A stretch of 64,000 nt of DNA. It comes from Mycobacterium branderi (GTDB lineage: Bacteria; Actinomycetota; Actinomycetes; Mycobacteriales; Mycobacteriaceae). Positions 19,776 to 42,741 of the stretch are shown here, piece after piece. Numbering within the stretch: the stretch's first letter is position 1; every line of letters begins with the position of its first letter. The notes below the pieces were generated by a model, which had not been told where the DNA came from, made no database searches, and saw only the letters and a list, made by a program, of their open reading frames with translations. Both the position numbers and the translations under genes were made by a program. The stretch lies in assembly GCF_010728725.1 (NCBI RefSeq), contig NZ_AP022607.1, positions 372,001 through 436,000 on the forward strand. Reading direction: 5' to 3'.

Positions 19776-19776
19776 G

Positions 19777-20910
19777 TCAGCGGCCCTGGTCCCGGTGGTA
19801 TGGCACGACCAGCGGATTACCGGCGGTGTAGGGGCTTGGCATTTGTCCAATCGTGCGGCCCCACTGCATTTCGAGCTCGGTCAGGTTGCCTTCCCAGCGG
19901 GTGCCGGTGAACAACCCGGCGTCGATGCGGCTCAGGGTAAGGTCGAAAATAGCGGTGAGGTTGGCGTAGTCACCGCGGAACCACTTCTCCAAAGTCTCGT
20001 TTGGCCACGGGAACGTGGCGAAGAAGCTCAGCGATCGAGTCAGATCCGGGCCGGCATTGGCCAGCGATTCAAGCACGGGCCCAATGCCTTTCAGTTCCGT
20101 GACCAGGTTATCCTTGGTCTTGTTCACGGAATCGGCAGCCACTGCGCTGAACTTGCCCAGTGAATCAAGTGCGTCGGCCAACGTCTTTCGTTCGTCTTTC
20201 AGGACGGCCAGTGCATCGGGGATAGTCTTGAAAGCCTTGTCGAGCACCGGCTTCTGGTCGGCGACCTGGCCGGCAAAGTTGTTGAGACTCTCGGTGGCGT
20301 CGATGATGTCTTCGGTCTGGTTGTTGACGTAGCCGATAAACCTATCCAGCTGCTTGATGAGGCTTCGCAGATCGTTCTCGCGGCCGGCCAACGCGGTGCT
20401 CAGTGCCTGAGTGATGTCTTGGATCTGACCGATCCCGCCACCGTTGAGAACCAGCGACAGTGCGGCCAGCGTCTTCTCCGTAGTGGGATACGAGCTCCCC
20501 GACGCCAACGGAATCAACGATCCGGCATGTAATTTGCCCTCGGGCGCGACCATTTTCGGCGGCGCCAGCTCGATGTGTTTGGAACCGAGCAGGCTAGTTT
20601 GTCCAACCTTGGCCGTCGCGTTGGCGGGCAATTCCACGTCGCCGTTGATGGTCATGGTGAGTAATGCGTGCCAGCCTTGCCGTTCTATCTTGCTGACGGT
20701 GCCGACGGTGACGTCACCGACTCGGACCCGGGAGTTTCGCTCTATGTTGTCCACATCCGGCAATTGCGCCTGGATGGTGAACGAACCCGGGCCACGGCCT
20801 TGCGTGCCGGGCAGCGGCAGGGAATTCGCACCGCGCCATCCGCAGCCCGATATCGCAATGGCCATGCCCAAAACCGCCGCGATGACCGCCGTCTGGTTTT
20901 TCGACTTCAT
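19777..20910 (-). CDS. mceE: Mce family lipoprotein MceE
   Basis: 377 residues; ATGA overlap with mceD. Signal peptide with lipobox AISGC (Cys23), as expected for the E subunit (LprK-type). The Mce domain (QAQLPDVDNIERNSRVRVGD, PANATAKVGQTSLLGSKHIE) is followed by long helices that form the tunnel. Ends VVPYHRDQGR. Confidence 0.93.
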   Translation of the reverse strand: MKSKNQTAVIAAVLGMAIAISGCGWRGANSLPLPGTQGRGPGSFTIQAQLPDVDNIERNSRVRVGDVTVGTVSKIERQGWHALLTMTINGDVELPANATAKVGQTSLLGSKHIELAPPKMVAPEGKLHAGSLIPLASGSSYPTTEKTLAALSLVLNGGGIGQIQDITQALSTALAGRENDLRSLIKQLDRFIGYVNNQTEDIIDATESLNNFAGQVADQKPVLDKAFKTIPDALAVLKDERKTLADALDSLGKFSAVAADSVNKTKDNLVTELKGIGPVLESLANAGPDLTRSLSFFATFPWPNETLEKWFRGDYANLTAIFDLTLSRIDAGLFTGTRWEGNLTELEMQWGRTIGQMPSPYTAGNPLVVPYHRDQGR

Positions 20911-22241
20911 GTCCCACCGCCGGGCGGCAACATCATTCCCTGTAGGCCGTCCGCCGGCTTTGTCGGCGCCGGCGCCACCTGGGTCGGCTCGGGCGCTTCA
21001 GCAGCCGTCCTTTCGCCAACAGACGCGGCCGGACCGGCAGGGTGGGGAGCCGCTGCCGAACCAGACGGCGGAACGTAATCCGGGCGCAGCCAGTCTTCGC
21101 TGTACGTGAGCTCATTAGGGCGCGCCGCCGCCCCGACGAACAGGTTTTCGCCCAGCGGCAAGAAGTTGTACTGACGGTTCTTGATGATCGGGGCGAGATA
21201 TTGCACGCAGAGCTTGGCTGCGTCCTTCCCGCCCAGTCGAGAGGCGGCTTGGATTGCGCCGCACAAAAACGTGAGGGGATTAGCGAAGTTGTTGAGCGCC
21301 AAAACTCCGGTTAGGGCCCCTTGGGCTGGCTGGTAGATGTTGGTGAAGTTTTGCAGGACGTTCGGCAGGATGTGCAGCGTCTGCTTGACGTCATCGAGGC
21401 TCTGGTTCAGCGCCGTCGTAACCGACGCGAGTTTGTCGGAGGTCGTGCCCATTGCGTCTCGGTTTTCTGCCACAAAGGTTTTCAGATGGTCGACCACATC
21501 GTTGATGGCAGATACTGCGTTGCTGATTTCGTTCGGGTCGTCCGACAGTAGAGCGGTTACTGCGGCTAGATTCTGGTTTAGCTGACGCAGTACGTCCTTG
21601 CTGTCTTGCAAGGCCGATACCAGGGTGGAGACGTTTTTGACCGTGGAGAACAGATCGGTGCTGTGGTCACCGAGTGCGGAAAACGCTTGCGACAGTTTGA
21701 TCAACGTGTCGCGGATATTGGGTCCTTCGCCGCGCAGATTTTCCGCAGCGGTGTTGACGGCTACCCCTAGCGTGCTTACTCCACCGGGCTGCGTTGGCTG
21801 CAGCATCTCGGTGAGTTTCTGCAGCTGCGCGCGCAGGTCGTCCCATTCGACCGGAACCGCGGTGCGCTCCAGTGGGATCACAGCACCGTTTTGCATGGCG
21901 GGTCCCTGAGTGTAGGCGGGTGTCAGTTGGATCGCCCGGACTGCGACGAGTGAAGGGGAGATGATCACCGCGTTGGCGTTCGCCGGCACCGGGTACTTGT
22001 CGTCGTACCAGAACGAGATCTTTGCCCGTTGCTGCTGCGGTTCGATTCGGTCGATCTTGCCGACGGGGATACCCAAGATCCGCACCTCATCGCCGGCGTA
22101 AATGCCGTTGCTGCTGGCGAAGTATGCGGTCACATGTGTGCGGTGGACCGTAGCTGTGGTTCGCAATGCGACGAATGACCCGACAAACAAGGTTGCGGTC
22201 AGGGCGACTGCCAGTCCGATCCGTGTTGTGCGTTTGGTCAT
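20907..22241 (-). CDS. mceD: Mce family protein MceD
   Basis: 444 residues; ATGA overlap with mceC. One N-terminal helix (RIGLAVALTATLFVGSFVAL), Mce domain (THVTAYFASSNGIYAGDEVR), helical region with NLRGEGPNIRDTLIKLSQAF, and a Pro/Ala-rich C-terminus ending MMLPPGGGT. Typical length for MceD. Confidence 0.93.
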   Translation of the reverse strand: MTKRTTRIGLAVALTATLFVGSFVALRTTATVHRTHVTAYFASSNGIYAGDEVRILGIPVGKIDRIEPQQQRAKISFWYDDKYPVPANANAVIISPSLVAVRAIQLTPAYTQGPAMQNGAVIPLERTAVPVEWDDLRAQLQKLTEMLQPTQPGGVSTLGVAVNTAAENLRGEGPNIRDTLIKLSQAFSALGDHSTDLFSTVKNVSTLVSALQDSKDVLRQLNQNLAAVTALLSDDPNEISNAVSAINDVVDHLKTFVAENRDAMGTTSDKLASVTTALNQSLDDVKQTLHILPNVLQNFTNIYQPAQGALTGVLALNNFANPLTFLCGAIQAASRLGGKDAAKLCVQYLAPIIKNRQYNFLPLGENLFVGAAARPNELTYSEDWLRPDYVPPSGSAAAPHPAGPAASVGERTAAEAPEPTQVAPAPTKPADGLQGMMLPPGGGT

Positions 22242-23548
22242 TGACCACCTCTGGGGCCTGGCGACGCTTCACTCGGCGCGGGGACGTATATGGGGGATGG
22301 GGTGGGCTCAGGAAGGGAGTGCAGGCCGGGCGGTGGCAGCGCCGGCGGTCCGGGCGGTGGACCACCCGGAGGCGGGGCAGGCAGCGGTTCGCGATACGGG
22401 TAGCGCGGATCGCCGGGTTTGCCCGTGATGGCGTCGGGGAGGGTGCGGTTGGGCTCACCGCCCTGGCCGGTACGTGGGTAGGGAACCGGCAGCGGCGGGG
22501 TGCCTGGTTGTCCGACTTGTGGATCGGTTCGCTGCGACGGCAACAGGACGGCAGGATCCAGTCCCAGATCGGAGAACGCCGCTTCGATGAATGGCTGAAC
22601 GAACTGGCCGGGCAACAGGTTAACGAGATAGGCCTTGAAGAACGGTCCTGAGGCGACGGACTCACCAAGCGACATCACGTAGGCGTTGAGTTTCTTGATC
22701 GCCTGCTGGACACGCTCCTTGTGGTTATCCAGGATGTCCAGCACACCATTGAGCTTGTCCAACATAGGTTTAAAGGTGTCGCTGTTTTCCGCGATGAACC
22801 CCTCGAGCTGGCGGGCGGCCGAGGTGATGTTGTGGGAGATCTGGTCTAGAGCGCCGCTTTGACTTTGCAGTTGGGCCAGGAGAGCGTTGGTGTTGGCGAG
22901 CAGGGTGACGATCTTGTCGCTGTCCTCGGCCAGTATTCCGGTCACTTTGTTGGCGTTGGCTAAGAGGTTGCGCAACTGTGCATCACGTTGGTCCAAGGTG
23001 TCGGAGAATCGCCCTACACCGCCGATGGCCAGCCTCAGCGCTGGCGGGGTGTCCTTGAAGGTGTCTGAAAGTACGGCCAGCGAGTGGGACAGCTGATCGG
23101 TGTTGAGCCCGCTGATCGTTGACGTGAGATCCCCGAGCGCATCGGGCAGCTGGTAGGGCGAGCGGGTGCGGTCGATCGGGATGGGGCCGCGCTGTTGGCC
23201 ATCACCGCGCGGGGTGACTTCAAGGATCTTTGCGCCCAACAGAGTTTTTGTCTTGATCGCCGCCTCGCTGCGGTCGCCCAAGTGGATGTTCTTGCCTACG
23301 TTGAACTTCACCAGGACGCGGGGGCCGTCTAAGCCGAGGCTTTCTACTTTGCCCACCTGGTAGCCGGAAACCTGCACTGCGGCACCGGTTATCAGCCCGC
23401 CGGCATCACCGAAGTATGCCGAATAGTGTTTGTTTTGATTGATGAAGGGCACTTTGTCGTAGTTGAGGGCAACCGCCGCTATGGCCACGGTGAAGGCGAC
23501 GCCAACGACGCAGAGGACGAGAGGTTTGCGTTCGGCGAAGGTTTTCAT
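22238..23548 (-). CDS. mceC: Mce family protein MceC
   Basis: 436 residues. The ATG at 23548 overlaps the mceB stop as ATGA, which decides it over a start 12 nt upstream. N-terminal helix (LVLCVVGVAFTVAIAAVALN), Mce domain (YSAYFGDAGGLITGAAVQVS, IKTKTLLGAKILEVTPRGDG), helical region and a C-terminal tail of about 110 residues that is extremely Pro-rich, as usual for MceC. Confidence 0.93.
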   Translation of the reverse strand: MKTFAERKPLVLCVVGVAFTVAIAAVALNYDKVPFINQNKHYSAYFGDAGGLITGAAVQVSGYQVGKVESLGLDGPRVLVKFNVGKNIHLGDRSEAAIKTKTLLGAKILEVTPRGDGQQRGPIPIDRTRSPYQLPDALGDLTSTISGLNTDQLSHSLAVLSDTFKDTPPALRLAIGGVGRFSDTLDQRDAQLRNLLANANKVTGILAEDSDKIVTLLANTNALLAQLQSQSGALDQISHNITSAARQLEGFIAENSDTFKPMLDKLNGVLDILDNHKERVQQAIKKLNAYVMSLGESVASGPFFKAYLVNLLPGQFVQPFIEAAFSDLGLDPAVLLPSQRTDPQVGQPGTPPLPVPYPRTGQGGEPNRTLPDAITGKPGDPRYPYREPLPAPPPGGPPPGPPALPPPGLHSLPEPTPSPIYVPAPSEASPGPRGGQ

Positions 23549-24573
23549 TTGGGCGCGCACCTTCCGCTGGCCTGACCGGCCAGCTTGATGTAAACCGGCT
23601 GGCCGCCCTTGCCGTTGACTTTCAGGATTGCGTCACACAGATAGAAGCTGAAGAAGTCGCCGTAGATGCCTTGCCGGGCGAGAAGCTGGAATTTGTCGGG
23701 CAGGGTTTGCAGCAAGTTGTCCATGTAGGGCCGGTCGGCCACGATCAGACCGGCTGTGCGGTCGGCCTCGCGAACGATCTTTTGGAACGGGGGACGTCCC
23801 TGGGCCAGTAGGTCGGTGAGCGAGGAGGTAGCCGCGTTTGTGTAGGCGACCGAATTGCTGATGTCGTGCTTGCGTTCGGCCAGAGTGGTTACCAGCTGGG
23901 ACAGAGAGTCGATGGCTTTATGGAATTGAGTCCGTTGCTCGCCGAGTGAACCCACGACGGTGTTGAGGTTGGTGATGACCTGTCCGACGAGCTGATCCCG
24001 GTCGGCGAGGGTGCGGGTCAGTGCCGCGGTGTGTTCGAAAAAGGAGGCGATGGTGTCACCCTGGCCTTCGAATGCGCTAATCAGCTGTCCGGTAAGCGCA
24101 TTGACCTGGTCGGGGTCGAGTGCACGGAACAAGGGTCGGAAACCGCCGATCAGCGCATCGAGGTCCAGCGCTGGTGAGGTGTTGGACAGCGCAATTGTGT
24201 CTCCTTGGTGGAGTTTCGTGGTTCCGCCTACTCCTTCCTCGAGTGCCAGGTAGCGCCCGCCGATTAGGTCGTCGTAGCGGATGACGGCCCGGGTGCCCTG
24301 CGTCAACACGACCGAATCGTCGGCGCTGAACGCGACTCGCACCGTTGTATCGGGCTGGACCGCAATACTTTTGACCTTGCCGACTTCCACACCGGCTATG
24401 CGGACGAACTGACCTTCTTTCAATCCAGTCACGTTGGTGAAGTCGGCGTTATAGACCTTCTCCGACTGGAACCGAAGCTGGCTGAAGATCGCGAACATCG
24501 CGAACATAAAGAAAAGGCAGACAGCCACGAATGCAGTGAGACGCCAGATGGTGCCTGGCAGTTTACTTCTCAC
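23545..24573 (-). CDS. mceB: Mce family protein MceB
   Basis: 342 residues; GTG at 24573 with GAAAGGTC upstream, 38 nt after the mceA stop. N-terminal helix (LTAFVAVCLFFMFAMFAIFS), Mce domain (YNADFTNVTGLKEGQFVRIA, VIRYDDLIGGRYLALEEG), helical region and a C-terminus with two cysteines (FYLCDAIL, GRCAPK). Shortest Mce subunit, as normal. Confidence 0.93.
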   Translation of the reverse strand: MRSKLPGTIWRLTAFVAVCLFFMFAMFAIFSQLRFQSEKVYNADFTNVTGLKEGQFVRIAGVEVGKVKSIAVQPDTTVRVAFSADDSVVLTQGTRAVIRYDDLIGGRYLALEEGVGGTTKLHQGDTIALSNTSPALDLDALIGGFRPLFRALDPDQVNALTGQLISAFEGQGDTIASFFEHTAALTRTLADRDQLVGQVITNLNTVVGSLGEQRTQFHKAIDSLSQLVTTLAERKHDISNSVAYTNAATSSLTDLLAQGRPPFQKIVREADRTAGLIVADRPYMDNLLQTLPDKFQLLARQGIYGDFFSFYLCDAILKVNGKGGQPVYIKLAGQASGRCAPK

Positions 24574-24611
24574 GCGGTGACCTTTCGATCTTACTAGGGG
24601 CTATGAAGTGG

Positions 24612-26066
24612 TCAGGGTGATGGGAGGGCGGGCGTGGGGAGCGGCGGCAGCGGAGTCGGCTGTTGGGAGGCTGGTGCGGGCACCGAGAACGGCTCCGAAC
24701 CTGGGGGCGGCGGGCCAGGTTCTTTCGGGGCACCGGGCGCAGGTGCGGGCGGCAGACCGGGATACAGCGGCGTGCCATCGGGCGCGTACATCGGCGCCCC
24801 GTAGGGCGGGGCCCCGGGGTAGGGCATTGGGCCAGGGGCCGGACCTCCGGGGTGGCGGATGCTCGGCGGTTTGGGTGCTCCGCGCGTGACCGGGAAGTAG
24901 TCGGCCCAGCCGGGGAAGCCGATGCCGGGATTGGGGCGCCAATCGATACCGGTTCCCCAACCGGTGTTGGTGATGAGTTGGCGGAGCGGCCAGTTCTTTG
25001 CGACGTCGGGCAGTGAGCCGCATCCCGGCTGGCCGCCTGGGCCGCCCTTGGCGCCGACCACAGGCAGATTGTCGGGGTACCTGTAAGGGTCGTCGCCGAG
25101 CAGAATCGCGGCGTCGACGATCGTTGACTTTCCATCCCCGCCGCCTGCGGCGTCATAGCCACCGTGGTCGAGGAAGTATTTCCCGCCGACGATCAGGCAG
25201 GTCAATTCAGGGTTGTACTTAAAGAGCAGGCTCGTTGTGGGTTCAAGAGAATTGACCGCATTCACCAGATTGTCCTTGCTGGACGCGATTAGGTTGACGC
25301 CGCTTTGCGCCAACCCGATGACGTTGACCAGAGCGGCGTCTAAATCCCGGGAGTTGTCTGTGATGGCGGAACTAGTTGTACTCGCCGAATCGAGCACGGC
25401 GAGGATGTCGCGGGCTGCTGCACTGTAGGTGTCACTGAATCCCGATACCGACTGCCAGTCATTACGCATTGTTTCGGCGCGGGGATTGAGTGCCAGCAGT
25501 ACTTCGTTGGCATCGGAGGTCGCTTGTCCGATGGTGGGGCCCTCGCCCCGCAGACCCTGCGACAGCGCCGTCAGTACGCTGTTCAGCTTGGCCGGGTCGA
25601 TCCGGTTCAACAGATCAGTAAGGTTCTGAAAGACCGTGTTTACCTCGGTGCTGACATTCTCCGAAGTAATCACTGATCCCGCTGAGATCCGTTTGGCGCT
25701 AGGGTGTTTGGGATAGACGAGGTCGACATATTTCGCCCCGAAGACGGTGGTGGCCCGGATCCGAGCCTGCACATTGGCGGGAATGTGTCGGATCTGATCC
25801 GGGTAGAGCTGCAAGGTCAACGTGACTGGCTTATTTCCTCCGTGAATCGTTCCGACACGACCTACCTGCACGCCGCGCATCTTGACCTTGGCCCCGAGCT
25901 CCATGACCAGCCCCGACCGGTCTGCGGTCAGCGTGACCGGAACATACGAGGCGAATGTTCCGGCGAATAACGAAAACGTGACGAATGCGAACAATCCGAT
26001 GACAGCGAGCAAGATCAGCGTGCACAGTGCGGGGTGGAGTCGCCTTTCTCCTGGTCTTGCTTCCAT
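24612..26066 (-). CDS. mceA: Mce family protein MceA
   Basis: 484 residues. The ATG at 26066 lies 5 nt after the yrbEB stop; longer readings overlap yrbEB and are rejected. N-terminal helix (LCTLILLAVIGLFAFVTFSL), Mce domain (VPVTLTADRSGLVMELGAKV, RIRATTVFGAKYVDLVYPKH), helical region, and a C-terminal 100 residues rich in Pro/Gly/Tyr (GAPPYGAPMYAPDGTPLYPG). Such disordered tails are common in MceA but this one is long. Which numbered mce operon this corresponds to could not be decided. Confidence 0.93.
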   Translation of the reverse strand: MEARPGERRLHPALCTLILLAVIGLFAFVTFSLFAGTFASYVPVTLTADRSGLVMELGAKVKMRGVQVGRVGTIHGGNKPVTLTLQLYPDQIRHIPANVQARIRATTVFGAKYVDLVYPKHPSAKRISAGSVITSENVSTEVNTVFQNLTDLLNRIDPAKLNSVLTALSQGLRGEGPTIGQATSDANEVLLALNPRAETMRNDWQSVSGFSDTYSAAARDILAVLDSASTTSSAITDNSRDLDAALVNVIGLAQSGVNLIASSKDNLVNAVNSLEPTTSLLFKYNPELTCLIVGGKYFLDHGGYDAAGGGDGKSTIVDAAILLGDDPYRYPDNLPVVGAKGGPGGQPGCGSLPDVAKNWPLRQLITNTGWGTGIDWRPNPGIGFPGWADYFPVTRGAPKPPSIRHPGGPAPGPMPYPGAPPYGAPMYAPDGTPLYPGLPPAPAPGAPKEPGPPPPGSEPFSVPAPASQQPTPLPPLPTPALPSP

Positions 26067-26071
26067 TGCCG

Positions 26072-26926
26072 CTATCCCGCCAGGTGGAAGTTTCCGGACT
26101 GGCCGTAAATGGCCAGGGAGACAAAGACGGTGACGAACACCGCGGTGACCAATGATGCCCGTACGGCTCGGCCGACCGCCTCGCCGACCCCGGCGGGTCC
26201 CCCGGAGGCGGTGAATCCGTAGTAGGTGTGTATCAGCATGACCACGACGGCCATTGCTATGGCCTGCAAGAACGACCACATCAAGTCGGTGGGGTTCAAG
26301 AAGGTGTTGAAGTAGTGATCGTAGACGCCGGTCGACTGGCCATAGATGGCTGTGGTGCCGAAACGTGTGGCCAGAAAAGCCATCAGCACGGCGACGCAGT
26401 ACAACGGAATTACCACGATCACGCCGGCGACCAATCGTGTCGACGTAAGGTAGGCCACTGAACGGATAGCCATCACCTCAAGCGCATCGATTTCTTCGCT
26501 GATTCGCATGGCCCCCAGCTGTGCGGTGGCTCCGGCGCCGATGGTGGCAGCCAGGCCGATACCTGCGACCAGCGGTGCGATCAGTCGCACGTTGAGGAAC
26601 GCCGATCCGAACCCGGCCAGTGCTCCAACGCCGATCTGCTGGAGATAGCTATACGCCTGTACTGCGACGAGCGAGCCGCCCGACAACATCAGGAAGCCAA
26701 CGATGGCCACTGAGCCGCCTACAAGAACCAATGCGCCGGTGCCAAGGCTCATCTGGGCGATCAATCGAACTAGCTCCACTTTGTAGTGCGCGAAGACAGT
26801 TCCAATGCCTCGCACAGTCTGTCCGTAGAACTGTGCTTGTGCACCGAGTCGATTCCAGCTGCTCACCACGCCGTGAGCAGTGCGGTAAAGCCTGGGGTGG
26901 AGTCCGCTTGGTTGGGTGGTGTTCAT
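26072..26926 (-). CDS. yrbEB: YrbE family ABC permease B
   Basis: 284 residues, ATGA overlap with yrbEA. MlaE-type permease with about five membrane helices. The family core is clear: GFGSAFLNVRLIAPLVAGIG, then AQLGAMRISEEIDALEVMAI (the EQ-loop-like segment that contacts the ATPase MceG/Mkl, which is encoded elsewhere). The permease pair forms the inner-membrane base of the Mce importer. Confidence 0.94.
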   Translation of the reverse strand: MNTTQPSGLHPRLYRTAHGVVSSWNRLGAQAQFYGQTVRGIGTVFAHYKVELVRLIAQMSLGTGALVLVGGSVAIVGFLMLSGGSLVAVQAYSYLQQIGVGALAGFGSAFLNVRLIAPLVAGIGLAATIGAGATAQLGAMRISEEIDALEVMAIRSVAYLTSTRLVAGVIVVIPLYCVAVLMAFLATRFGTTAIYGQSTGVYDHYFNTFLNPTDLMWSFLQAIAMAVVVMLIHTYYGFTASGGPAGVGEAVGRAVRASLVTAVFVTVFVSLAIYGQSGNFHLAG

Positions 26927-27732
26927 GTCGCCACCTTCACACCGACTGCGGTGGCGATCACATTGATGACGAAGAGCGCTAGGAAAGTAAACACAACGGT
27001 CTCGTTGACCGCGTTGCCGACAGCCTGCGGACCGCCGCCGACGTGGGTGCCTTTGTAACAGGCGATGAGACCGGCGACCAGGCCGAAAATGGCGGCCTTC
27101 GCCAGGGACACAACCACTTCGGGCGTTCCGACTAACAGGGTGAGGCCGGCCGCGAATGCACCGGGAGTGACGTGCTGGAAGTAAACGGCGAAGAAGAATC
27201 CGCCGACAACACCCGTGACGGTCACCACCGACGACAGCAGCAGCGAGACGAGTGTGGCCGCCAGCACCCGCGGTACCACGAGCGCCTGAATCGGGTCAAT
27301 GCCCATCACGCGCAGGGCATCCAGTTCGTCGCGGATCGTCCGAGCCCCGAGATCTGCGCACATCGCGGTGGCGCCCGCGCCAGTGATCACGAGAACGGTC
27401 ACCACTGGGCCACTTTGGGTAACCGTCCCCAGTGCCGTGCCGGCGCCTGAGAAATCCGCTGCGCCGATCTCAACCAGGAGTACGTCAACGTCAAACGTCA
27501 ACAGCACGCCGAACGGGATACACAACAAGGCGGTCGGAAGCATGGAGACCCGTGCCACGAACCACATTTGGAAGAGGAACTCTCGCCATGCCCATGGCGG
27601 CCGGAACATCTGGACAACGGTGTCCAGGCACATCGCGAAGAATGCGCCGAGTGCATTGGCCGGTTTGGTGACCGCGTCCATCGTCACCAGGGGCAGCCAG
27701 CCGCCGTACTCGCTGCGAACCGGGATGGACAA
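26923..27732 (-). CDS. yrbEA: YrbE family ABC permease A
   Basis: 269 residues from a TTG at 27732, chosen because AAGAGGAG lies 4 nt upstream; an ATG at 27747 would add five residues but has no ribosome site. Membrane permease with the family segments AADLGARTIRDELDALRVMG and VPRVLAATLVSLLLSSVV, and a C-terminal GGPQAVGNAVNETVVFTFLA. First gene of the mce operon; its promoter region contains the 50-bp inverted-repeat element at 27835-27884. Confidence 0.93.
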   Translation of the reverse strand: MSIPVRSEYGGWLPLVTMDAVTKPANALGAFFAMCLDTVVQMFRPPWAWREFLFQMWFVARVSMLPTALLCIPFGVLLTFDVDVLLVEIGAADFSGAGTALGTVTQSGPVVTVLVITGAGATAMCADLGARTIRDELDALRVMGIDPIQALVVPRVLAATLVSLLLSSVVTVTGVVGGFFFAVYFQHVTPGAFAAGLTLLVGTPEVVVSLAKAAIFGLVAGLIACYKGTHVGGGPQAVGNAVNETVVFTFLALFVINVIATAVGVKVAT

Positions 27733-27834: not shown

Positions 27835-27884
27835 ATTGGCTGATCCGTCAAAAGCGGACATCGGACTTTGACTGCGCTATCAAT
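27835..27884. promoter_or_regulatory. 50-bp inverted-repeat element, copy A (mce operon / amidohydrolase)
   Basis: Arms ATTGGCTGATCCGTCAAA (27835-27852) and TTTGACTGCGCTATCAAT (27867-27884) are separated by 14 nt; 12 of 18 arm positions pair. Copies with the same arm length and spacer occur at 42692-42741 and 44868-44917. It lies between the divergent starts of yrbEA and the M20 amidohydrolase, about 100 bp from yrbEA and 140 bp from the other. Probable binding site of an unidentified regulator. Confidence 0.65.
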
Positions 27885-28026: not shown

Positions 28027-29238
28027 ATGAACCTGAGAAGTGATGCTCGGGCGCTGCAAGATGACCTTGTCGCGTTCCGTCGCGACCTGCATCGCGAACC
28101 AGAGGTCGGCCTACACCTGCCGCGCACCCAGGAACGTGTGCTGGGTGCAGTGGGGGGTCTTCCTCTAGAGATCGGGGTCGGCGAGACGGTGTCTTCGGTG
28201 ACGGGGGTCTTGCGCGGAGGCCGACGGGATGCAAATCGCCCTAAAACTGTGTTGTTGCGCGCCGACATGGACGCCCTGCCGATCGGCGAGCAGACCGACG
28301 AGGACTTTGCATCGCGCAACGGCGCGATGCATGCCTGCGGCCACGACTTGCACACGGCTGCCTTGGTTGGTGCCGCACACTTGCTAGCAGCGCATCGTGA
28401 CGGCATCGCTGGCGACGTGGTCTTCATGTTCCAGCCAGGCGAGGAGGGCTGGGACGGCGCACAGGCGATGATTGCTGAAGGAGTGTTAGACGCCGCCGGA
28501 CGTCGAGTGGACTTCGCGTACGGGATGCACGTGTTGTCGAACACGATGCCTGCGGGAGTTTTCTGTAGCAAGCCCGGCCCGATGCTGTCGGCCTCGCACA
28601 CACTGTCGGTCACCGTCCGCGGTGCCGGCGGGCATGGTTCTGCACCCCACTCGGCTAAGGACCCGGTGGTTGCCGCCGCTGAAATGATCACCTCACTACA
28701 GACCATGGTCACCCGGGGGTTCGATGCCTTCGATCCGGTTGTGGTCACCGTCGGGGTCGTGCAGGCCGGGGCGCGCGCCAACATCATTCCCGATATCGCG
28801 ACGTTCGAGGCAACCGTGCGACGGTATTCGGCCGAGAATGCGGAACGGTTGGCGACCTTAATCCCGCGGGTTCTGCAAGGAGTTGCTGCCGCCCACGGCG
28901 TCGAGGTAGACGTCGATTTTCATGTCGAATATCCACTTACCGTCAACAACGCGGGCGAAGTCGCGTTTGCACAGCGCGTTGTCCAGGAAATGATCGACGA
29001 GGATCGCTATGCGCCAATGGATAGGCCGCTCAGCGGTTCGGAAGACTTCTCCAGAGTGCTCGACATCGTTCCTGGCGCGTTCGTGGGCCTTGGTGCATGC
29101 ATGCCTGATCTGGATCCCGTATCCGCGCCGATGAATCACTCCCCGCGCGCGCGGTTTTCCGACGACGTTCTGGCCGACGCAGCGGCCGTGTATGCGGCGC
29201 TCGCCGTCGAACGGCTCGACGTCGAAGCTTCGAGTTAG
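28027..29238 (+). CDS. M20 family amidohydrolase
   Basis: 403 residues from the ATG at 28027. Metal-binding segments of the M20D family are present: LLRADMDALPI, then HACGHDLHTAAL, then PGEEGWDGA and a C-terminal SGSEDFS. Related enzymes hydrolyse N-acyl amino acids (hippurate, IAA-amino acid conjugates). Divergent from the mce operon with the shared inverted-repeat element between. Its stop overlaps that of the convergent TetR gene by 4 nt. No clear ribosome site precedes the start. Substrate unknown. Confidence 0.85.
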   Translation: MNLRSDARALQDDLVAFRRDLHREPEVGLHLPRTQERVLGAVGGLPLEIGVGETVSSVTGVLRGGRRDANRPKTVLLRADMDALPIGEQTDEDFASRNGAMHACGHDLHTAALVGAAHLLAAHRDGIAGDVVFMFQPGEEGWDGAQAMIAEGVLDAAGRRVDFAYGMHVLSNTMPAGVFCSKPGPMLSASHTLSVTVRGAGGHGSAPHSAKDPVVAAAEMITSLQTMVTRGFDAFDPVVVTVGVVQAGARANIIPDIATFEATVRRYSAENAERLATLIPRVLQGVAAAHGVEVDVDFHVEYPLTVNNAGEVAFAQRVVQEMIDEDRYAPMDRPLSGSEDFSRVLDIVPGAFVGLGACMPDLDPVSAPMNHSPRARFSDDVLADAAAVYAALAVERLDVEASS

Positions 29239-29888
29239 CTGGATCCGCCGATATGCAGGGCGCCGCACCACATGTCGGTAAGCAGGTCCAAGACGTGCTC
29301 GCGATCACTGTCCATAACCTGCTGAACGATGGTCCGAAACCAGAAACTGTCGAGCATGAGGACTAGATGCACGACCCTTAGGCGGGCGTCCTCGCGCTCC
29401 TGCGGCGTCTCGAATCGTGCTAGGTAACCACGCATTTCGTTGGCGAGGCCACCCAACTGGAATGCCAATCGACCCGCGATCGTGCGGTCGACGGCAAGTG
29501 CCTCCTCCCAGGCCGGTAGCAGCGCGGCATGCTGCTCCCACCAATGCACCGCCTGGGCCAGCCACTCCCGCATGGCGGCCGGCGTGTCTGCCAGTAGTGC
29601 CTTGTCGAGTCCGCGCCAGTATTCCGCCGATTGAGCGATCACTCCGTCGAGAACGGCCAGGAAACACTCGGCCTTATCGGTGAAGTGGATGTAAAACGTG
29701 GCGCGGTGGATCTGGCATTCGGCGGTGATATCGGCGATCGACGCTGCACCGTACCCGCGGGTCTCGAACACCGTTCGCGCGGCCTCGACCAGCCGCTCGC
29801 GGGTGCGCTGCTTCTGTTCGGCGCGAACCGAGCCGCCCTGCCAACCACGTCGGCTGGTGGTTGCCAGATCGTCGGCGGACATCCTCAT
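29235..29888 (-). CDS. TetR family regulator
   Basis: 217 residues. N-terminal HTH: LVEAARTVFETRGYGAASIA, then IHRATFYIHFTDKAECFLAV. The ligand domain (VHWWEQHAALLPAWEEALAV) resembles actinobacterial TetRs of lipid or small-molecule catabolism. The first ATG (29888) has AGGA very close upstream; an inner ATG at 29882 is possible. It lies 211 bp downstream of ribBA on the same strand, so it may regulate the flavin-monooxygenase cluster, or the convergent amidohydrolase. Confidence 0.85.
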   Translation of the reverse strand: MRMSADDLATTSRRGWQGGSVRAEQKQRTRERLVEAARTVFETRGYGAASIADITAECQIHRATFYIHFTDKAECFLAVLDGVIAQSAEYWRGLDKALLADTPAAMREWLAQAVHWWEQHAALLPAWEEALAVDRTIAGRLAFQLGGLANEMRGYLARFETPQEREDARLRVVHLVLMLDSFWFRTIVQQVMDSDREHVLDLLTDMWCGALHIGGSS

Positions 29889-30099
29889 ATCCTAGATAAT
29901 TCAATGCGGTGCAGCGTGCTCACTCCTCTACATACGGCTTGCCGAGAGCGCCGGCCTGCCCCTGGTCCTCCGCCGGCCCTGCGTTTCAGTACAGGCGAGG
30001 ATCGCGCCAACGTTGTCCGACCACACCGGTGCCGGGCCACAATCACAGCACCGAGACCAGTGTGTGTCGACGATCCGCGACCGTGCACAATCGCCCCCG

Positions 30100-31377
30100 T
30101 CACGGCGCCGTCAACGCTGAGGGCATGTTGTGTCCCATCCGGTCTCGCTTGGTGCGAAGGTAGTGAAGGTTGTGGTCTGTTACCGCGGTGGGCAGGCCGA
30201 CGCGCCCGACGATAGAGAGCGAGAACCCTTCGAGGCCACCGTACTTGGCCGGGTTGTTGGTGATGAGCCGCAGCCGGCGGACACCGAGATCGGACAGGAT
30301 CTGAGCGCCGATTCCGTATGTGCGGGCATCCACCGGCAGGCCCTGCGCGATGTTGGCTTCGACCGTGTCCAACCCGCCATCCTGCAGGGCATACGCGCGG
30401 ATCTTGTGCGCCAACCCGATTCCGCGGCCCTCGTGGCCACGCAGATACACCAGGACTCCGCAGCCTTCGTCGGTGATGGCTTGCAGTGCACACTCCAGCT
30501 GGTCTCCGCAGTCGCACCGAAGCGAGCCAAGGACGTCGCCGGTGAGACATTCGCTGTGCACCCGTACCAGTACACCTTCAGGCGACCGCCCGGCGGCGGC
30601 GACGTCGCCGAGCACCAGGGCCAGATGCTCAAGACCATCGACAGCGCTTCGGTACGCCACGGCCCGGAACAAGCCCGCGCGGGTAGGCAGGGCCGACTCG
30701 GCGATCGGTTCGATCGTCCGCTCCGTGGCTTTGCGGTAGCGGACCAGATCTGCGATAGCCACGAGCGGCAAACCGTGCTCGGCGGCAAAGTTTCGCAAGC
30801 TCGCACCGCGTCTCATCGAGCCGTCGTCATCGATGATTTCGCTGATCACGGCCACCTCGGGACGTCCTGCCAGCCGCAAGAGATCGATGGCGGCCTCGGT
30901 GTGTCCTTGCCGCACGAGCACGCCTCCGGCTCGCGCACGCAACGGAAAGATATGTCCCGGCCGGCGTAGATCCGTGGGGGTCGTGCTCGGATCGGCGAGC
31001 GCACGCGCGGTGCGGGTGCGGTCACGCGCGGACACGCCGGTCCCGGTCTCGACGTGGTCGACCGAGACCGTAAACGCTGTTCCGTGCCTGTCCTCGTTGT
31101 GCGCAACCATGAGCGGCAGCTCAAGCCGGTCGGCTCGGTCCTCGCCAACTGGCACGCATACGATTCCTGTGGTATGCGCGACCAGGAAGGCCATCTGCTC
31201 AGCCGTCACGAGGTCGGCGGCCACCACGAGGTCGCCTTCGTTTTCGCGGTTCTCGTCGTCGACGACGACGACCATGCGGCCCTGCGCGAGTGCGGAGACC
31301 GCGTCGTCGACGGTGGCCGCCGGTCCGATGTACTGGGATTGTTCCGACATTTGCGCTAGCGCCTTCGGTTGGCTCAC
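30100..31377 (-). CDS. ribBA: Bifunctional DHBP synthase / GTP cyclohydrolase II (RibBA)
   Basis: 425 residues from a GTG at 31377 that overlaps the flavin reductase stop as GTGA; an ATG at 31350 is the alternative. The RibB half makes dihydroxybutanone phosphate (VVVVDDENRENEGDLVVAAD; HIFPLRARAGGVLVRQGHTE). The RibA half opens GTP (HSECLTGDVLGSLRCDCGDQ, with the Cys-Cys-Cys zinc site; RGHEGRGIGLAHKIRAYALQ). Both halves look intact. It is the last metabolic gene of a flavin monooxygenase operon rather than of a rib operon, so it is probably a second copy dedicated to flavin supply. Confidence 0.92.
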   Translation of the reverse strand: MSQPKALAQMSEQSQYIGPAATVDDAVSALAQGRMVVVVDDENRENEGDLVVAADLVTAEQMAFLVAHTTGIVCVPVGEDRADRLELPLMVAHNEDRHGTAFTVSVDHVETGTGVSARDRTRTARALADPSTTPTDLRRPGHIFPLRARAGGVLVRQGHTEAAIDLLRLAGRPEVAVISEIIDDDGSMRRGASLRNFAAEHGLPLVAIADLVRYRKATERTIEPIAESALPTRAGLFRAVAYRSAVDGLEHLALVLGDVAAAGRSPEGVLVRVHSECLTGDVLGSLRCDCGDQLECALQAITDEGCGVLVYLRGHEGRGIGLAHKIRAYALQDGGLDTVEANIAQGLPVDARTYGIGAQILSDLGVRRLRLITNNPAKYGGLEGFSLSIVGRVGLPTAVTDHNLHYLRTKRDRMGHNMPSALTAP

Positions 31378-31892
31378 GCGGCCGCGAGCCGACGGAACTG
31401 GCTGGCATGGAATACCAGTGGGGCAGCTTCGGGGTCGCACCGCACCCCGTGAATCTCGAGTAAGACGATCACATGGTCACCGGCGGGCACCTCGGCGTGG
31501 ACGGAGCAGTCCAGCCAAGCGGCCGCGCCGTGGACCAATACGGCACCCTGCGACGTTGGGGCCCAGTCGATGTCGGCAAATCGATCGCCGTTCTTCATAG
31601 CCAGGGCGCGGCATTGCAGATCCTGGTCCTCGGCGAGGACGCTCAACCCCAGCCGAAGTCTTCCACGCAACCTCGGCCAGGTGGTCGAGGTGTTTTGCAC
31701 GCACACTGATACCAGTGGCGGGCTGACCGATACCGGGGTGAATGAACTGGCGGCGATACCCACCGGTTTGCCATCGACGAGCGCACATACTGCGGTCACG
31801 CCGGATGGGAAGCAGCCGTAAGCATTTCGGAGTTTCGACGGGTCGGTCGGAACCGGGTCGACGTCGATCGTCTGGGCTGTGGAAGCGGTCAT
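31374..31892 (-). CDS. Flavin reductase (HpaC/RutF type)
   Basis: 172 residues; ATG at 31892 with GACGAGGA upstream, 13 nt after the esterase stop. Flavin-reductase-like fold: LRNAYGCFPSGVTAVCALVD, then GIAASSFTPVSVSPPLVSVC, NTSTTWPRLRG and a DHVIVLLEIHGV strand. It should supply reduced FMN or FAD to the luciferase-like monooxygenase encoded upstream in the operon. Cytoplasmic, NAD(P)H dependent by family. Confidence 0.9.
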   Translation of the reverse strand: MTASTAQTIDVDPVPTDPSKLRNAYGCFPSGVTAVCALVDGKPVGIAASSFTPVSVSPPLVSVCVQNTSTTWPRLRGRLRLGLSVLAEDQDLQCRALAMKNGDRFADIDWAPTSQGAVLVHGAAAWLDCSVHAEVPAGDHVIVLLEIHGVRCDPEAAPLVFHASQFRRLAAA

Positions 31893-31905
31893 CGATGGGT
31901 CCTCG

Positions 31906-32853
31906 TCAGTTCGTGGCCGGCGCGGTGGCGAACGCATGCGCGAGCTGTGCGGCCGCATCATCGAGTGCCTCGGCGGTGCGGTTGAGCATCCCCACCATTG
32001 AGAGGAATCCATGGAATACACCGGGGTAACGTTTGACGGTCACGTCGACGCCGGCGTCACGCAGCCGTTGGCCGTATTGCTCGCCGTCGTCGCGGACGGG
32101 ATCGTGCTCGGCAGTAAGGATGTACGCGGGCGGCAATCCGGCCAATGACGACGCATTCGACGGTGTCGCGCGCGGATCGGTGCGGTCGGCCTGATCCCGT
32201 AGATACTGTGCCCAGAACCAGGTGACGTCGTCGACGGTCAGCAGGGGAGCGGAGGCGTGCTCACGCCACGACGGACGCTCCACCGCGTATTCGGTGACCG
32301 GGTATGCCAGAAGTTGGAAGGCCAACGGTGGGCCGCCGCTATCGCGGGCCAGGAGGGTGGTGGCGGCCGCGAGGTTGGCGCCGGCGCTCTCGCCGCCGAT
32401 TGCGATCCGGTTGGAGTCTGCGCCGATTTCGTCGGCATGGTTCGCGACCCACTGCACCGCGGCGTAGCAGTCGTTGACCGCCGCGGGGAATTTGTGCTCC
32501 GGAGCGAGCCGGTAGTCGACCGAAACCACCACGCAGCCAGCCTTGTCCGACAGGGAACGGCAAAGTGCTTCGCTCGCGTCGAGTGTGCCCATCGCCCACC
32601 CGCCGCCGTGCAGGTGGATCAGAACAGGTAGATCGTTCTCAGGGCCGGGGCGGTACACCCGGGTCTGCAAGGGGCCGGCTGGGCCGCCAACGGTGTGGTC
32701 TTCGACCGAATGTAGTGGCGGCGGTGGCGGGCTCTGCTCACTGAGCCCGGCGAGGACTGCGCGTGCGCCTTCGACGCCGAGCGTGTGCAACGGTCCGGGC
32801 AGCAGACCCGCGAGCGCGTCGGTCAACTGCTGAGCATCAGGATCGAGTGTCAT
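31906..32853 (-). CDS. HSL-family alpha/beta hydrolase (esterase)
   Basis: 315 residues; AAAGGAG 7 nt before the ATG at 32853. Hormone-sensitive-lipase-type motifs: oxyanion HGGGWAMG, nucleophile elbow GGESAGAN, acid AEHDPVRDDG and catalytic His in PGVFHGF. Likely opens an ester, lactone or carbamate product of the pathway. Confidence 0.92.
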   Translation of the reverse strand: MTLDPDAQQLTDALAGLLPGPLHTLGVEGARAVLAGLSEQSPPPPPLHSVEDHTVGGPAGPLQTRVYRPGPENDLPVLIHLHGGGWAMGTLDASEALCRSLSDKAGCVVVSVDYRLAPEHKFPAAVNDCYAAVQWVANHADEIGADSNRIAIGGESAGANLAAATTLLARDSGGPPLAFQLLAYPVTEYAVERPSWREHASAPLLTVDDVTWFWAQYLRDQADRTDPRATPSNASSLAGLPPAYILTAEHDPVRDDGEQYGQRLRDAGVDVTVKRYPGVFHGFLSMVGMLNRTAEALDDAAAQLAHAFATAPATN

Positions 32854-32871
32854 CGCGAAACTCCTTTCTGC

Positions 32872-33660
32872 TCACCCGAGGAATTCAAGGACGCGGCGGC
32901 TGACCGCTTCCCGCTGCTCGACATACGGGTAATGGCATGCGTGCTCGATGATTTCGACTTGGGCGTCATCGATGCGGGAACGGAACTCCTCGGCATACAC
33001 GGCCGGGACCAACAGATCTTCGGCGCCCCAGACCAGCAGCGTGGGCGCCGTAACGCGCCGCAGCCGTTTGGACAACCCCCGCTCCGGGATCGGGGCGGTG
33101 AAATGCGCAGCGCTCGCGATCGTCGAGAACCGGTGGATCACCTGCGCCTGAGCCTCGGCTGGGTCGTCGCTGAGTGTGGTGCGCTCCTTGACTTCCGGTT
33201 TGTCGAAGTCCAACCATAGCTGCGCGGCAAGTGCCTCGGGGGCGACGGTGACGAAGTCACCGACCGGTGCGTCGTCCAGCCACAGGCCCATGCTGTCGAT
33301 CAGCACCAGCTTGCGAACTTTCCGGGGATACGTCGCGGCATATTCGGCCGCGACCATCCCGCCGTAGGAGTGCCCGACCAGATCGAACGGGACGCCGATG
33401 CCCAGGTTGTCGAACAACTCGTCGTAGTAGAGAACAAGGTCATGCATACCGTCGAGCAGGTCGAGTTCGGCGGGTTCGTCGATGCCCGGGTTGGCCGGCG
33501 CGAAGACTCGGTGGTCCGCAGCCAAGTCGTCGAGGAATCCGGACCATTCCTGGCCGAGCGGACCGTGCAAGAACACCACTGGATCGCCCTGTCCCTCGGC
33601 GATCACCGGATTTGACGAGAAGGGACTGCTGAGTGCGACGGGGTTGGGCGCGGTGGTCAT
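32872..33660 (-). CDS. Alpha/beta hydrolase
   Basis: 262 residues. The ATG at 33660 overlaps the monooxygenase stop as ATGA. Motifs: VVFLHGPLGQEWSGF (oxyanion), VGHSYGGMVAAEYA (Ser nucleophile), WGAEDLLVPA (acid), EHACHYPYVE (His). Translational coupling to the LLM enzyme suggests that it acts on that enzyme's product. Confidence 0.92.
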   Translation of the reverse strand: MTTAPNPVALSSPFSSNPVIAEGQGDPVVFLHGPLGQEWSGFLDDLAADHRVFAPANPGIDEPAELDLLDGMHDLVLYYDELFDNLGIGVPFDLVGHSYGGMVAAEYAATYPRKVRKLVLIDSMGLWLDDAPVGDFVTVAPEALAAQLWLDFDKPEVKERTTLSDDPAEAQAQVIHRFSTIASAAHFTAPIPERGLSKRLRRVTAPTLLVWGAEDLLVPAVYAEEFRSRIDDAQVEIIEHACHYPYVEQREAVSRRVLEFLG

Positions 33661-34892
33661 TTCGCCTCCTTGGTGGCGAGGGCGGTGGCTGCGGATTGGT
33701 TGCGGGTTGCACCGGTCGGCCACCAACGGTCTTCGTAGTCGGGCCAGAGCTCACGCAGTCTCGGCATGACTTTTTCGGCATACAGTTTGGTGCTGTGCTT
33801 GGTCAGCTCGGTCGGCATGGATTGGATCTGCATGAGGGCGATGAGATGACCGATGCGTAGATCCTTCGCCGCCTGGATGAGCCGTTCGGCGACGGTGTCC
33901 GGGCTGCCGGCGATCACCGAACCCGATTCGATCGCGTGGGCGTAGGAGGTCTCGAGCTTCGCGAAGGCATTCACATCGCCCGCTTTCTCGGCTATGGCCG
34001 CCAGGCTCTTCTTGCTCATGTAGCCGGGCACCATGATGTAGTGCGGGGGGATGTGCCAGGCCTTGTTGAAGAAGTTCTCGATGTGCTTGCCGTACAAGCG
34101 TTCCGCCTCGCTGTCGGTATCGGCGACGGCGAGGAATTGCGCGAATCCCGCGCGGTACGGGTTGTCATCGAGGCCGGCTTTTTCGATCACCTCCCAGAAT
34201 CCATCCATCTGCGCCTTGGCTATCTTGGCCCCCTGGAAACTGAGGTAGTTGTAAGGCAGGTCGTACTTGGCGGCGTAGTCGTAGGTCTCCAGCGATCCCC
34301 CGCCCAATAGCCACATCGGCGGGTGCGGCTTCTGCAACGGCACGGGCCACGGGTTGACATACCGGACCTTGTTGAACCGCCCGTTGAACGGAAACGGCCC
34401 AGGTCGCGTCCAGGCCTGCCGGATCAGCTCCATGCCCTCGTACCAGCGCGGGCGCACGTGAGTCGGAGGTAGACCCGCGACGCCGCAGGTGTCCATTGGG
34501 ATACCGACCGGCATGCCCGCGACGAGTCGCCCGCCGCTCATGCAGTCCACCCAGGCCATCTCCTCGGCCACCCGCACCGGTGTGGTCGTCGCCAACGTCG
34601 AGCCGAGTATGCAGATCGCGGCGTCGGATTTGCGGCGAGCCAGCGTCGCCGCGGTGATTAGCGGCATCGGGAAGCCGTAGATATTGGAGTGGTGCTCATT
34701 GGTGCCGATGCCGTCGAACCCGAGATCATCGGCGTATTCGAGCTCATCGAGGTTCCAATTGATGTACTTGTGCACCTGCTCGGGATCGCATAACTCCCGG
34801 TTGGGCACTGTCACCCAGCTGCTTTCGTACCGCTGGGCGAAATCGTCGGGCAGGTCCCGGTAGCCCTGCATGTGGAACCAGATTGTCTTCAT
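33657..34892 (-). CDS. Luciferase-like (LLM) flavin-dependent monooxygenase
   Basis: 411 residues; AGAGGAC upstream of the ATG at 34892. TIM-barrel LLM core: DLGFDGIGTNEHHSNIYGFP, then ILGSTLATTTPVRVAEEMAW, SGGRLVAGMPVGIP, and GGGSLETYDYAAKYD. The EHH segment and long insert near 260-300 resemble FMN-dependent two-component monooxygenases rather than F420 enzymes. With flavin reductase and RibBA in the same operon it is probably FMNH2 dependent. Related enzymes cleave N-heterocycles or ring ketones; the substrate is unknown. Confidence 0.9.
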   Translation of the reverse strand: MKTIWFHMQGYRDLPDDFAQRYESSWVTVPNRELCDPEQVHKYINWNLDELEYADDLGFDGIGTNEHHSNIYGFPMPLITAATLARRKSDAAICILGSTLATTTPVRVAEEMAWVDCMSGGRLVAGMPVGIPMDTCGVAGLPPTHVRPRWYEGMELIRQAWTRPGPFPFNGRFNKVRYVNPWPVPLQKPHPPMWLLGGGSLETYDYAAKYDLPYNYLSFQGAKIAKAQMDGFWEVIEKAGLDDNPYRAGFAQFLAVADTDSEAERLYGKHIENFFNKAWHIPPHYIMVPGYMSKKSLAAIAEKAGDVNAFAKLETSYAHAIESGSVIAGSPDTVAERLIQAAKDLRIGHLIALMQIQSMPTELTKHSTKLYAEKVMPRLRELWPDYEDRWWPTGATRNQSAATALATKEAK

Positions 34893-34987
34893 GGATGACG
34901 TCCTCTCTTGTCGACGGCCGGTGCGGGCCTGTCCCGGCCGGTCGGTTAGCAGGGCTCTTAGTGGCTTGCTGTGATGCGGGTCGCATC

Positions 34988-35051
34988 AGCATCTCGCACG
35001 ACACTATGTCGTGTCAATAGCGTGATGTTGAGTCACCCACGACACGTCGTG
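34988..35051 (-). promoter_or_regulatory. Operator palindromes and possible promoter of the monooxygenase operon
   Basis: Two related palindromes: CACGACA CTA TGTCGTG (34997-35013, perfect 7-bp arms) and CACGAC AC GTCGTG (35038-35051), with starts 41 bp apart. On the minus strand a TTGACA box (35017-35012) leads into the first palindrome, with GATGCT 18 nt later as a weak -10. Typical layout for a TetR-type repressor site. The second copy lies inside the end of the DUF1028 gene. Confidence 0.55.
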
Positions 35052-35979
35052 TAACTTTGGGTGAGTGGGCCAGCGCGCGGGCCGTGGCCTCGGACACGAT
35101 TCCCGCCGCGGCCAAGCGCGCCCCCATGTCGTGCAGTTGTGGCCGGCAGTTGACCATGGCGCGAAACTCGGCATGTGCCTCGTCGAGGCGTCCGCCGCGT
35201 GCCAGCAACACCGCGCGCCACAAGTGGATTTCGGGATTATCCGGTCCGAGCGCCGATGCGGACTGGTGCGCGTCGGCGAGGGCGTCGTCGAGCAACGCGG
35301 CGGACGCGTTCTGGTCGCCGCTGACGATCAGACCGACCGCGGCGCCCAGCTTCGTGGTGGCTTCGTGCACGCCCAGCAGGCGGTCGAGTTCGCCCACCGG
35401 ATTATGCGAGTCGTCCACGCGCAGATTGACCAGCACCTCGTTGTCCGGCGGAGGGCGCCGTGCACCGCTGACCACGAGCATCGCCGCCGACTGGGAGCCA
35501 CGGACGTCACCGCCGCCGTCCTCGGCCGCCTGCAGTGCCGCCAGCAGCCGGTGCGGCAGCGCAGGATTGGCGGCCGAATCGGCGACGGTTGCGGCCATCG
35601 CGTCGAGGACGTGCTCGGAGTCGAGGAGGTTTCCTTGCACGCTCCACCCGTCGCCGGTGCGGCCGCCGGCGGCCGGTATGCACCGCGCACCGGAGTGCAC
35701 CGCGACATTGCCCCGGGCGTCGAGCATCGCGATTTGGCGCCATTGCGGTCGGCTGTCGACGGCCAGCAGCGCCTGCAGCGTGTCGGCCGCGCTCGTGCCG
35801 GCTCTCATGGCGTCCAAACCGCGCGCTCCATAGCGCGGGTCGGGAACGAATTGTGTTGCCACTGCGCCGACTCCGGCCTCAGCCCAGGGCACCACCGCGC
35901 CGACAGCGAAGAAGTGTGACTGTACGGCGACACCGAGGTCGCCGGTGACCGGATCGCGGATAAGGACCGAGTAGGTCAT
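35014..35979 (-). CDS. DUF1028 family Ntn-hydrolase-like protein
   Basis: 321 residues; ATG at 35979 overlaps the upstream stop as ATGA. The DUF1028 core starts at residue 1: MTYSVLIRDPVTGDLGVAVQ, then AGVGAVATQFVPDPRYGARG and WSVQGNLLD. The Ntn-hydrolase fold and the C-terminal helical (TPR/peptidoglycan-binding-like) extension of about 90 residues fit the longer family members. Biochemical role unsettled; family members are often found in amide or amino-acid catabolism clusters. Confidence 0.88.
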   Translation of the reverse strand: MTYSVLIRDPVTGDLGVAVQSHFFAVGAVVPWAEAGVGAVATQFVPDPRYGARGLDAMRAGTSAADTLQALLAVDSRPQWRQIAMLDARGNVAVHSGARCIPAAGGRTGDGWSVQGNLLDSEHVLDAMAATVADSAANPALPHRLLAALQAAEDGGGDVRGSQSAAMLVVSGARRPPPDNEVLVNLRVDDSHNPVGELDRLLGVHEATTKLGAAVGLIVSGDQNASAALLDDALADAHQSASALGPDNPEIHLWRAVLLARGGRLDEAHAEFRAMVNCRPQLHDMGARLAAAGIVSEATARALAHSPKVTRRVVGDSTSRY

Positions 35980-36797: not shown

Positions 36798-36826
36798 GGG
36801 CCGGTCCCTGTCAGCGTGTCAGAGGG

Positions 36827-37387: not shown

Positions 37388-37503
37388 GAGAATTTCTCCT
37401 GTAGTCGAATTTCTATACGTACATCAGCTTTTCAGTATCGTTGCGGCATCTCATTGGTCAGAACGCTGAAAGCGCAACCAGAGATTTGTCTGAGTAGGCA
37501 ACG

Positions 37504-39138: not shown

Positions 39139-39168
39139 GATCGCGAGTATTTGGGCACGAGCACGTCT

Positions 39169-41536: not shown

Positions 41537-41556
41537 GCGCGGCGTGCTGGGGACCT

Positions 41557-42691: not shown

Positions 42692-42741
42692 ATTGGGCGA
42701 ACCGTCAAACGCCGGTGTGGCAGTTTGACGGCGCGATCAAT
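42692..42741. promoter_or_regulatory. 50-bp inverted-repeat element, copy B (LLM / SDR)
   Basis: Arms ATTGGGCGAACCGTCAAA (42692-42709) and TTTGACGGCGCGATCAAT (42724-42741), spacer 14 nt, 14 of 18 arm positions paired, the best of the three copies. It lies 35 bp upstream of the SDR start and 137 bp from the divergent LLM start. Confidence 0.65.

Follow-up and report, generated by a model that had tools for sequence, protein, structure and literature searches.

A 50-bp element that recurs at three promoters of a catabolic gene cluster appears, judged from its sequence, to be a double operator that a single regulator of the cluster would read; the PucR-type protein encoded among the same genes is the most likely one, and for this statement as a whole our confidence is about even. 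The predicted existence of a regulon confined to the cluster is well supported as far as sequence goes. All positions refer to the window, i.e. the whole stretch of 64,000 nucleotides that was analysed, unless another contig or locus is named (Table 1).

Table 1. Copies of the element and genes of the cluster
Feature	Coordinates	Strand	Remarks
Element S1	27835..27884	.	Flanked by yrbEA-mce (minus) and M20 amidohydrolase (plus), intergenic with the chosen starts; exact match
Element S2	42692..42741	.	Separates LLM oxidoreductase (minus) from mycofactocin-type SDR (plus)
Element S3	44868..44917	.	5' of cytochrome P450 (plus)
S4, candidate degenerate element (tentative)	37453..37502	.	15/20 specified bases, same 32-bp arm register
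YrbEB and six Mce proteins (MlaD, Mce4_CUP1)	18312..26926	minus	
YrbEA (MlaE permease)	26923..27732	minus	First of yrbE-mce series; start TTG after GAGGAG
M20 amidohydrolase	28027..29238	plus	
Gene series behind S4	29235..37387	minus	186-aa protein without Pfam match first, TetR last; also alpha/beta hydrolase, DUF1028, LLM, two alpha/beta hydrolases, flavin reductase, RibBA
TetR-type regulator	29235..29888	minus	Final gene of S4 series; candidate binder
PucR-type regulator (HTH_30)	37504..39138	minus	Favoured candidate binder; PF13556, 4.8e-20
LuxR-type large regulator (LAL: AAA/TPR/GerE)	39230..41536	plus	TTG start after GGAGG chosen; candidate binder
LLM (luciferase-like) oxidoreductase	41557..42555	minus	F420 or FMN; NCBIfam matches shown all below cut-offs
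Mycofactocin-coupled SDR	42777..43622	plus	TIGR03971, 378.7 bits (cut-off 300)
Zn-dependent alcohol dehydrogenase	43637..44686	plus	
Cytochrome P450	45007..46269	plus	
Acyl-CoA ligase (AMP-binding)	46400..48013	plus	

Each of the copies S1, S2 and S3 consists of two facing 18-bp arms of the form ATTGnnnGnnCnGTCAAA separated by a spacer of 14 nt, exactly as the first-pass annotation had described them, coordinates included. The arm pattern has 12 specified bases, and all 12 are matched in all six arms. The conservation that had been claimed for the arms beyond TTTGAC is likewise real: 29 of the 36 arm columns are identical across the three copies (14/18 in one arm and 15/18 in the other), against 3/14 in the spacer and 2/60 and 6/60 in the flanks. 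With conservation confined to the arms while spacer and flanks have diverged, the element looks like a protein-binding site, not a recent DNA repeat.

The core GTCAAA-N14-TTTGAC is not enriched in the window at up to three mismatches (14 matches, 12.2 expected), and its exact occurrences there are S1, S2 and S3 only. Together with the outer ATTG/CAAT the full pattern has 20 specified bases. The whole-genome search with this pattern that had been suggested as a check (5,979,623 bases in two contigs) found, at up to three mismatches, only S1-S3, each with zero mismatches, inside 17 kb of the window and all at cluster promoters. The reversed control gave no match across the genome at the same threshold, for which we estimate, assuming equal base frequencies, about 0.2 matches. 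With no further genomic copy at up to three mismatches, the pattern does not recur at random places within genes. A single arm is matched without mismatch once outside the cluster (C1:1902368, inside a lysS-like class II tRNA-synthetase gene); we took this sole exact match for chance and, judging from exact single arms, set aside a wider regulon.

That the copies are non-regulatory, a small repeat family or a chance similarity, is very improbable on this evidence: besides the arms-only conservation, all copies are at promoters, and few matches were expected while the reversed control was empty. One point in its favour comes from Lactococcus nasutitermitis, where TTTGAC-N6-GTCAAA double palindromes with a 14-nt gap (L032 7663-7712 and L033 3498-3547) sit between genes without a common theme, one copy between rpsB-like and tsf-like genes and the other after an acyl-ACP thioesterase gene; no regulator gene was found among the scanned neighbours of either. 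An 18-base version of the pattern matched 14 stretches in the GTDB r220 contigs (from which our own genome was possibly left out), none of them actinobacterial by title; the two Lactococcus sites are among these stretches, which we regard as chance and not as homologous elements.

The placement of the elements between genes depends on the start codons. The mechanically longest yrbEA and LLM ORFs start within the elements, and S1-S3 are intergenic only with downstream starts chosen from the sequence (TTG 27732 or ATG 27747 for yrbEA, ATG 28027 for M20, ATG 42555 for LLM); with these, the neighbours named by the first-pass annotation (yrbEA-mce / M20, LLM / mycofactocin SDR, and P450) are borne out, and between them S1-S3 would serve the starts of five genes in a single catabolic cluster. 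The center of S1 lies about 127 bp from the yrbEA start (TTG 27732) and 167 bp from that of M20 (ATG 28027), the center of S2 about 161 bp from the LLM start (ATG 42555) and 60 bp from that of the SDR (ATG 42777), and the center of S3 about 114 bp before the P450 start (ATG 45007). Sites 60-167 bp before start codons are suited to an activator. Since S1 and S2 lie between divergent genes, one complex could serve both sides. TTTGAC was also considered as a -35 box and rejected: TANNNT is absent 16-19 bp from TTTGAC in six outward directions (two each at S1 and S2, one each at S3 and S4), and occurs just twice in the outward stretches of S1-S4, 62 and 23 bp past the S1 edges. Nor does a consistent -10 element follow downstream, which makes a -35 role for TTTGAC improbable. 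No RNA families were found in the region 27000-46500.

The arms are pseudo-palindromic in themselves (TTGR-N8-TCAA), 4-6 of the 9 pairs matching in each (2.4 expected), a property that the first-pass annotation had missed. The half-sites of an arm are an inner TTTGAC, present in all six arms, and an outer ATTGR. Because the arms are imperfect palindromes in their own right, the element is best read as two dimer sites; their centers are 32 bp apart, about three DNA helical turns.

A tentative fourth operator copy, S4, ranks fourth in the window by a matrix built from S1-S3 (the next best site has 13/20); the first-pass annotation had not noticed it. On one side it has the pucR stop (37504), on the other the first codon (37387) of a minus-strand gene series. 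A site as good by count occurred in 3% of 200 random 64-kb sequences, and the matrix score of S4, 8.35, comes no higher than about the 90th percentile of the best random scores. When 399,020 positions of natural sequence elsewhere on this contig were scanned as background, one reached 15/20, or about 0.16 expected per window. We keep S4 tentative because this background site (L157 2749-2798) outscores it on the matrix with 16.7; the location of S4 at a cluster promoter raises its odds, leaving it a candidate. The background site, near a ParA-like gene, starts 23 bp upstream of an ORF of 253 aa (minus) that has no Pfam match; we took it as chance.

The PucR-type protein is favoured as binder because of its HTH similarity and the operator architecture. 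Only 1 bp separates the end of its gene from S4, and S1-S3 are all within 10 kb of it. The HTH aligns with that of MabR (Rv2242, PDB 9f80), with nearly equal recognition helices (LHRNTIRYRLQR versus VHPNTVRYRLKR), and a mabR-like protein of our own genome has a similar one, VHPNTVRYRLRR. The recognition sequence of MabR is TTTTGT-N9-ACAAAA (PMC5541348); the operator lies upstream of the fasII operon. Its TTTG/CAAA half-sites are like the arms here (TTTG-N11-CAAA in MabR, TTTG-N10-CAAT in the arms), but the half-sites differ (TTTGAC here, TTTTGT in MabR), the spacing is 1 bp shorter here, and the MabR site, of 21 bp, is one palindrome in the given sequence, whereas the element comprises two. 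As a positive control, the exact MabR sequence occurs once in our own genome (L143 1964-1984, plus one place with one mismatch), between the stop of the mabR-like gene and a gene with a fabD-type acyl-transferase domain; the order of regulator stop, operator and target is common to this locus and to pucR, S4 and its gene series. GGDEF_2 exceeds the Pfam cut-off in the mabR-like protein but is unmatched in the cluster PucR. Against the PucR assignment stand the eight other HTH_30 genes of the genome (nine in total). The 91-bp stretch between pucR and luxR lacks the element, so autoregulation is not visible.

As for architecture, an arm of 18 bp fits an inverted repeat of about 17-24 bp, as would be expected for a PucR-type protein; repeats of 17, 21 and 24 bp are named in one report, the own site of Bacillus subtilis PucR being non-palindromic (PMC7652997). 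The same source describes the PucR-type GabR of Corynebacterium glutamicum as an octamer with two 21-bp inverted repeats, both within one 55-bp fragment and both required for strong binding, and the characterised PucR-type regulators as activators, with the one exception of B. subtilis PucR, which acts in both ways (PMC7652997). GabR is like our case in being a PucR-type activator of catabolic genes with two neighbouring inverted repeats (the gabR-gabT operator); it differs in having 21-bp repeats in one intergenic region, as against 18-bp arms in three or four regions here. MabR is described as dimer and tetramer in solution, but the authors of that work consider the dimer to be favoured by DNA (PMC11617747), an argument against a DNA-bound tetramer in the case of MabR.

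Tandem palindromes are also often bound by IclR-family proteins, for which one study gives distances mainly of 18-22 nt, with about three or four turns less strongly over-represented (PMC8222616). There, too, two palindromes lie on one DNA face for a tetramer, as in the geometry here, but mostly with 18-22 bp between centers, versus 32 bp in the element. The binder could be envisaged as some other PucR-, IclR- or MarR-type protein whose gene lies outside the cluster, and the genome offers nine HTH_30 genes and the window an IclR gene (60224-61174, about 14 kb past the P450). By eye, the arms do not fit the IclR consensuses GKTYCRYW3-4RYGRAMC and TGRAACAN1-2TGTTYCA of that study (PMC8222616), and the IclR gene lies outside the cluster. 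With the element restricted to a rare cluster, a cluster-encoded binder is simplest, and we think a binder from elsewhere improbable.

Two further regulators are encoded in the cluster itself. The LuxR-type LAL (39230-41536) might bind through its GerE domain, one dimer per arm, and activate the cluster. Its gene is less than 4 kb from S2 and S3, and the protein is 71% conserved in Mycobacterium sp. NPDC051198. Homologues of the P450 in the other genomes of the genus that were compared (60-66% identity) are mostly found beside a different LuxR-type gene: a divergent LAL-type gene adjoins the P450 in 23 of 29 related loci of the genus, and in 7/7 longer stretches around loci from those 29, so that this kind of protein accompanies this kind of P450, a point for LuxR as regulator of the P450. 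However, the element is absent from all 29 P450 upstream regions, including the 23 with a LAL neighbour (best 9-11/20), and the LALs of those loci are distant (39-46% identity over the N-terminal part). Four of the five P450 neighbours found twice have open frames of 1,121-1,187 aa and so may belong to other subfamilies. NarL/DosR-type sites are also not known to resemble an 18-bp arm with conserved bases at its outer ends. Taken together, this makes the LAL an unlikely binder. Several upstream stretches of the related P450 loci share GGATAGTCGAC near the P450 start.

The TetR-type protein (29235-29888) would act as a repressor, two dimers on the palindromic arms keeping the cluster off until ligand release. 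Palindromes of 18 bp fit TetR operators in general, tetR closes the gene series behind S4, and the identity of TetR to its NPDC051198 relative (76%) exceeds that of PucR and LuxR to theirs. The protein is without a close relative of solved structure, the best PDB match having an E-value of 4.6e-8 for the HTH part only, and S4, which would provide TetR autoregulation, is weak. The elements, moreover, lie 60-167 bp before the start codons and show no recognisable promoter core, with which a TetR repressor might be expected to overlap. Little beyond the palindromic arms points to TetR, and we consider it as unlikely a binder as the LAL. The first-pass annotation had proposed that one regulator, perhaps the PucR-, LuxR- or TetR-type protein, controls the genes. 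Of this, the cluster-specific regulon fits, there being no other genomic copy, and among the three we favour PucR.

Mce1R, Mce2R and Mce3R are local regulators of mycobacterial mce operons and are GntR- or TetR-type, not PucR. Local control of mce genes is what they have in common with the cluster here. Mce3R is reported to bind a non-palindrome sequence (PMC11667970). Among titles and opening lines of abstracts in the open-access literature, a scope that most subscription papers fall outside, none presented this motif or this cluster. The GTCAAA/TTTGAC strings in a passage of a paper on the Rv0560c promoter are primers, and were dismissed.

The cluster is rare, as far as sequence searches can tell. 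At up to two mismatches the full pattern is missing from all 296 further genomes searched in the genus. No PucR relative appeared at E ≤ 1e-60 among the matches listed for 395 other genomes of the genus (up to three candidates scored per genome), and a pattern search of genomes for PucR relatives gave 36 matches, none of them confirmed. For LuxR, the best relative in 296 other genomes of the genus (E ≤ 1e-100) has 37% identity, the best in an order sample of 249 genomes (E ≤ 1e-120) 36-39%, and the best by E-value in 51 related genomes (E ≤ 1e-60) 36%, with 44% over part of the protein; no relative was found in one other genus (24 genomes, E ≤ 1e-150), nor among the matches listed for the family of that genus (381 genomes, E ≤ 1e-145, two candidates scored per genome). 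In plasmid records the only near matches, besides a 100-bp M20 match, were to the AMP ligase, with PucR at no more than 32% and LuxR at no more than 38% identity. A protein database holds closer relatives: in NPDC051198 PucR is 58-59%, LuxR 71% and TetR 76% identical, and the PucR keeps HRNTIRYRLQR unchanged. All three are encoded on contigs of 55,913 bp, presumably one and the same, and NPDC051198 was the only relative found with the three regulators on contigs of equal length. Strain SMC-18 has a PucR relative at 57%; its LuxR is absent among the named matches listed, where many matches carry no strain name.

Returning to the PucR-type protein, we infer the identity of the binder, its assembly, the activation, the effector and the shared pathway as follows. 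One dimer would occupy each 18-bp arm, its two HTH domains reading the inner half-site (TTTGAC-like) and the outer one (ATTGR-like), and the two dimers, on one DNA face three helical turns apart, would probably touch, forming a tetramer or larger assembly. With inducer present (the substrate or its CoA ester), the PucR dimers on both arms would cooperate, and the bound complex would most likely activate the genes for the Mce importer, M20 amidohydrolase, LLM, mycofactocin SDR with ADH, and P450; S4 would perhaps give weak activation of the flavin-reductase and LLM genes. Gene content suggests a common substrate for the enzymes of the cluster: the Mce system may import a lipophilic compound, M20 and the alpha/beta hydrolases may cleave amide or ester bonds, oxidation could be carried out by the P450, the LLMs (flavin reductase and RibBA supplying FMN), the mycofactocin SDR and the ADH, and the acyl-CoA ligase would then activate the compound. 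We put forward only tentatively, below even confidence, the complete picture, in which a PucR master switch, possibly megaplasmid-borne, would recognise four half-sites, arranged as two dyads with 32 bp between them, and so co-express an Mce lipid importer and the enzymes for oxidation by P450, by mycofactocin-linked proteins and by LLM-type proteins using FMN or F420.

By its sequence the element would be an operator of an ordinary kind, that of a local regulator, with a double-dyad form. For most Mce importers no substrate is known, and an operator tying one Mce system to defined oxidoreductases would be a reporter for the inducer, and hence for the likely substrate. If the PucR reading is true, PucR-type control, which in mycobacteria is known for mycolic-acid synthesis (MabR), would also cover the uptake and catabolism of lipids, and a PucR-controlled Mce system would form a self-contained regulon reporting its imported substrate.

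The contig that carries the cluster has 864,257 bp and, in view of its ParA-like and WhiB-like genes, may be a megaplasmid. These genes lie at about 267.2-270.9 kb of the contig (C2; ParA-like ATPase at L157 3955-4926, WhiB-like gene at L157 1222-1920), and 539 bp near them are 81% like the YefM/YoeB region of a Mycolicibacterium aubagnense plasmid. The acyl-CoA ligase gene (46400-48013) has 79% DNA identity to a gene of a Mycobacterium dioxanotrophicus plasmid, where the match sits near alcohol and aldehyde dehydrogenase genes. The 64-kb window contains no tRNA genes; a tyrosine-recombinase (phage integrase) gene lies at 58304-59434, about 10 kb past the cluster.
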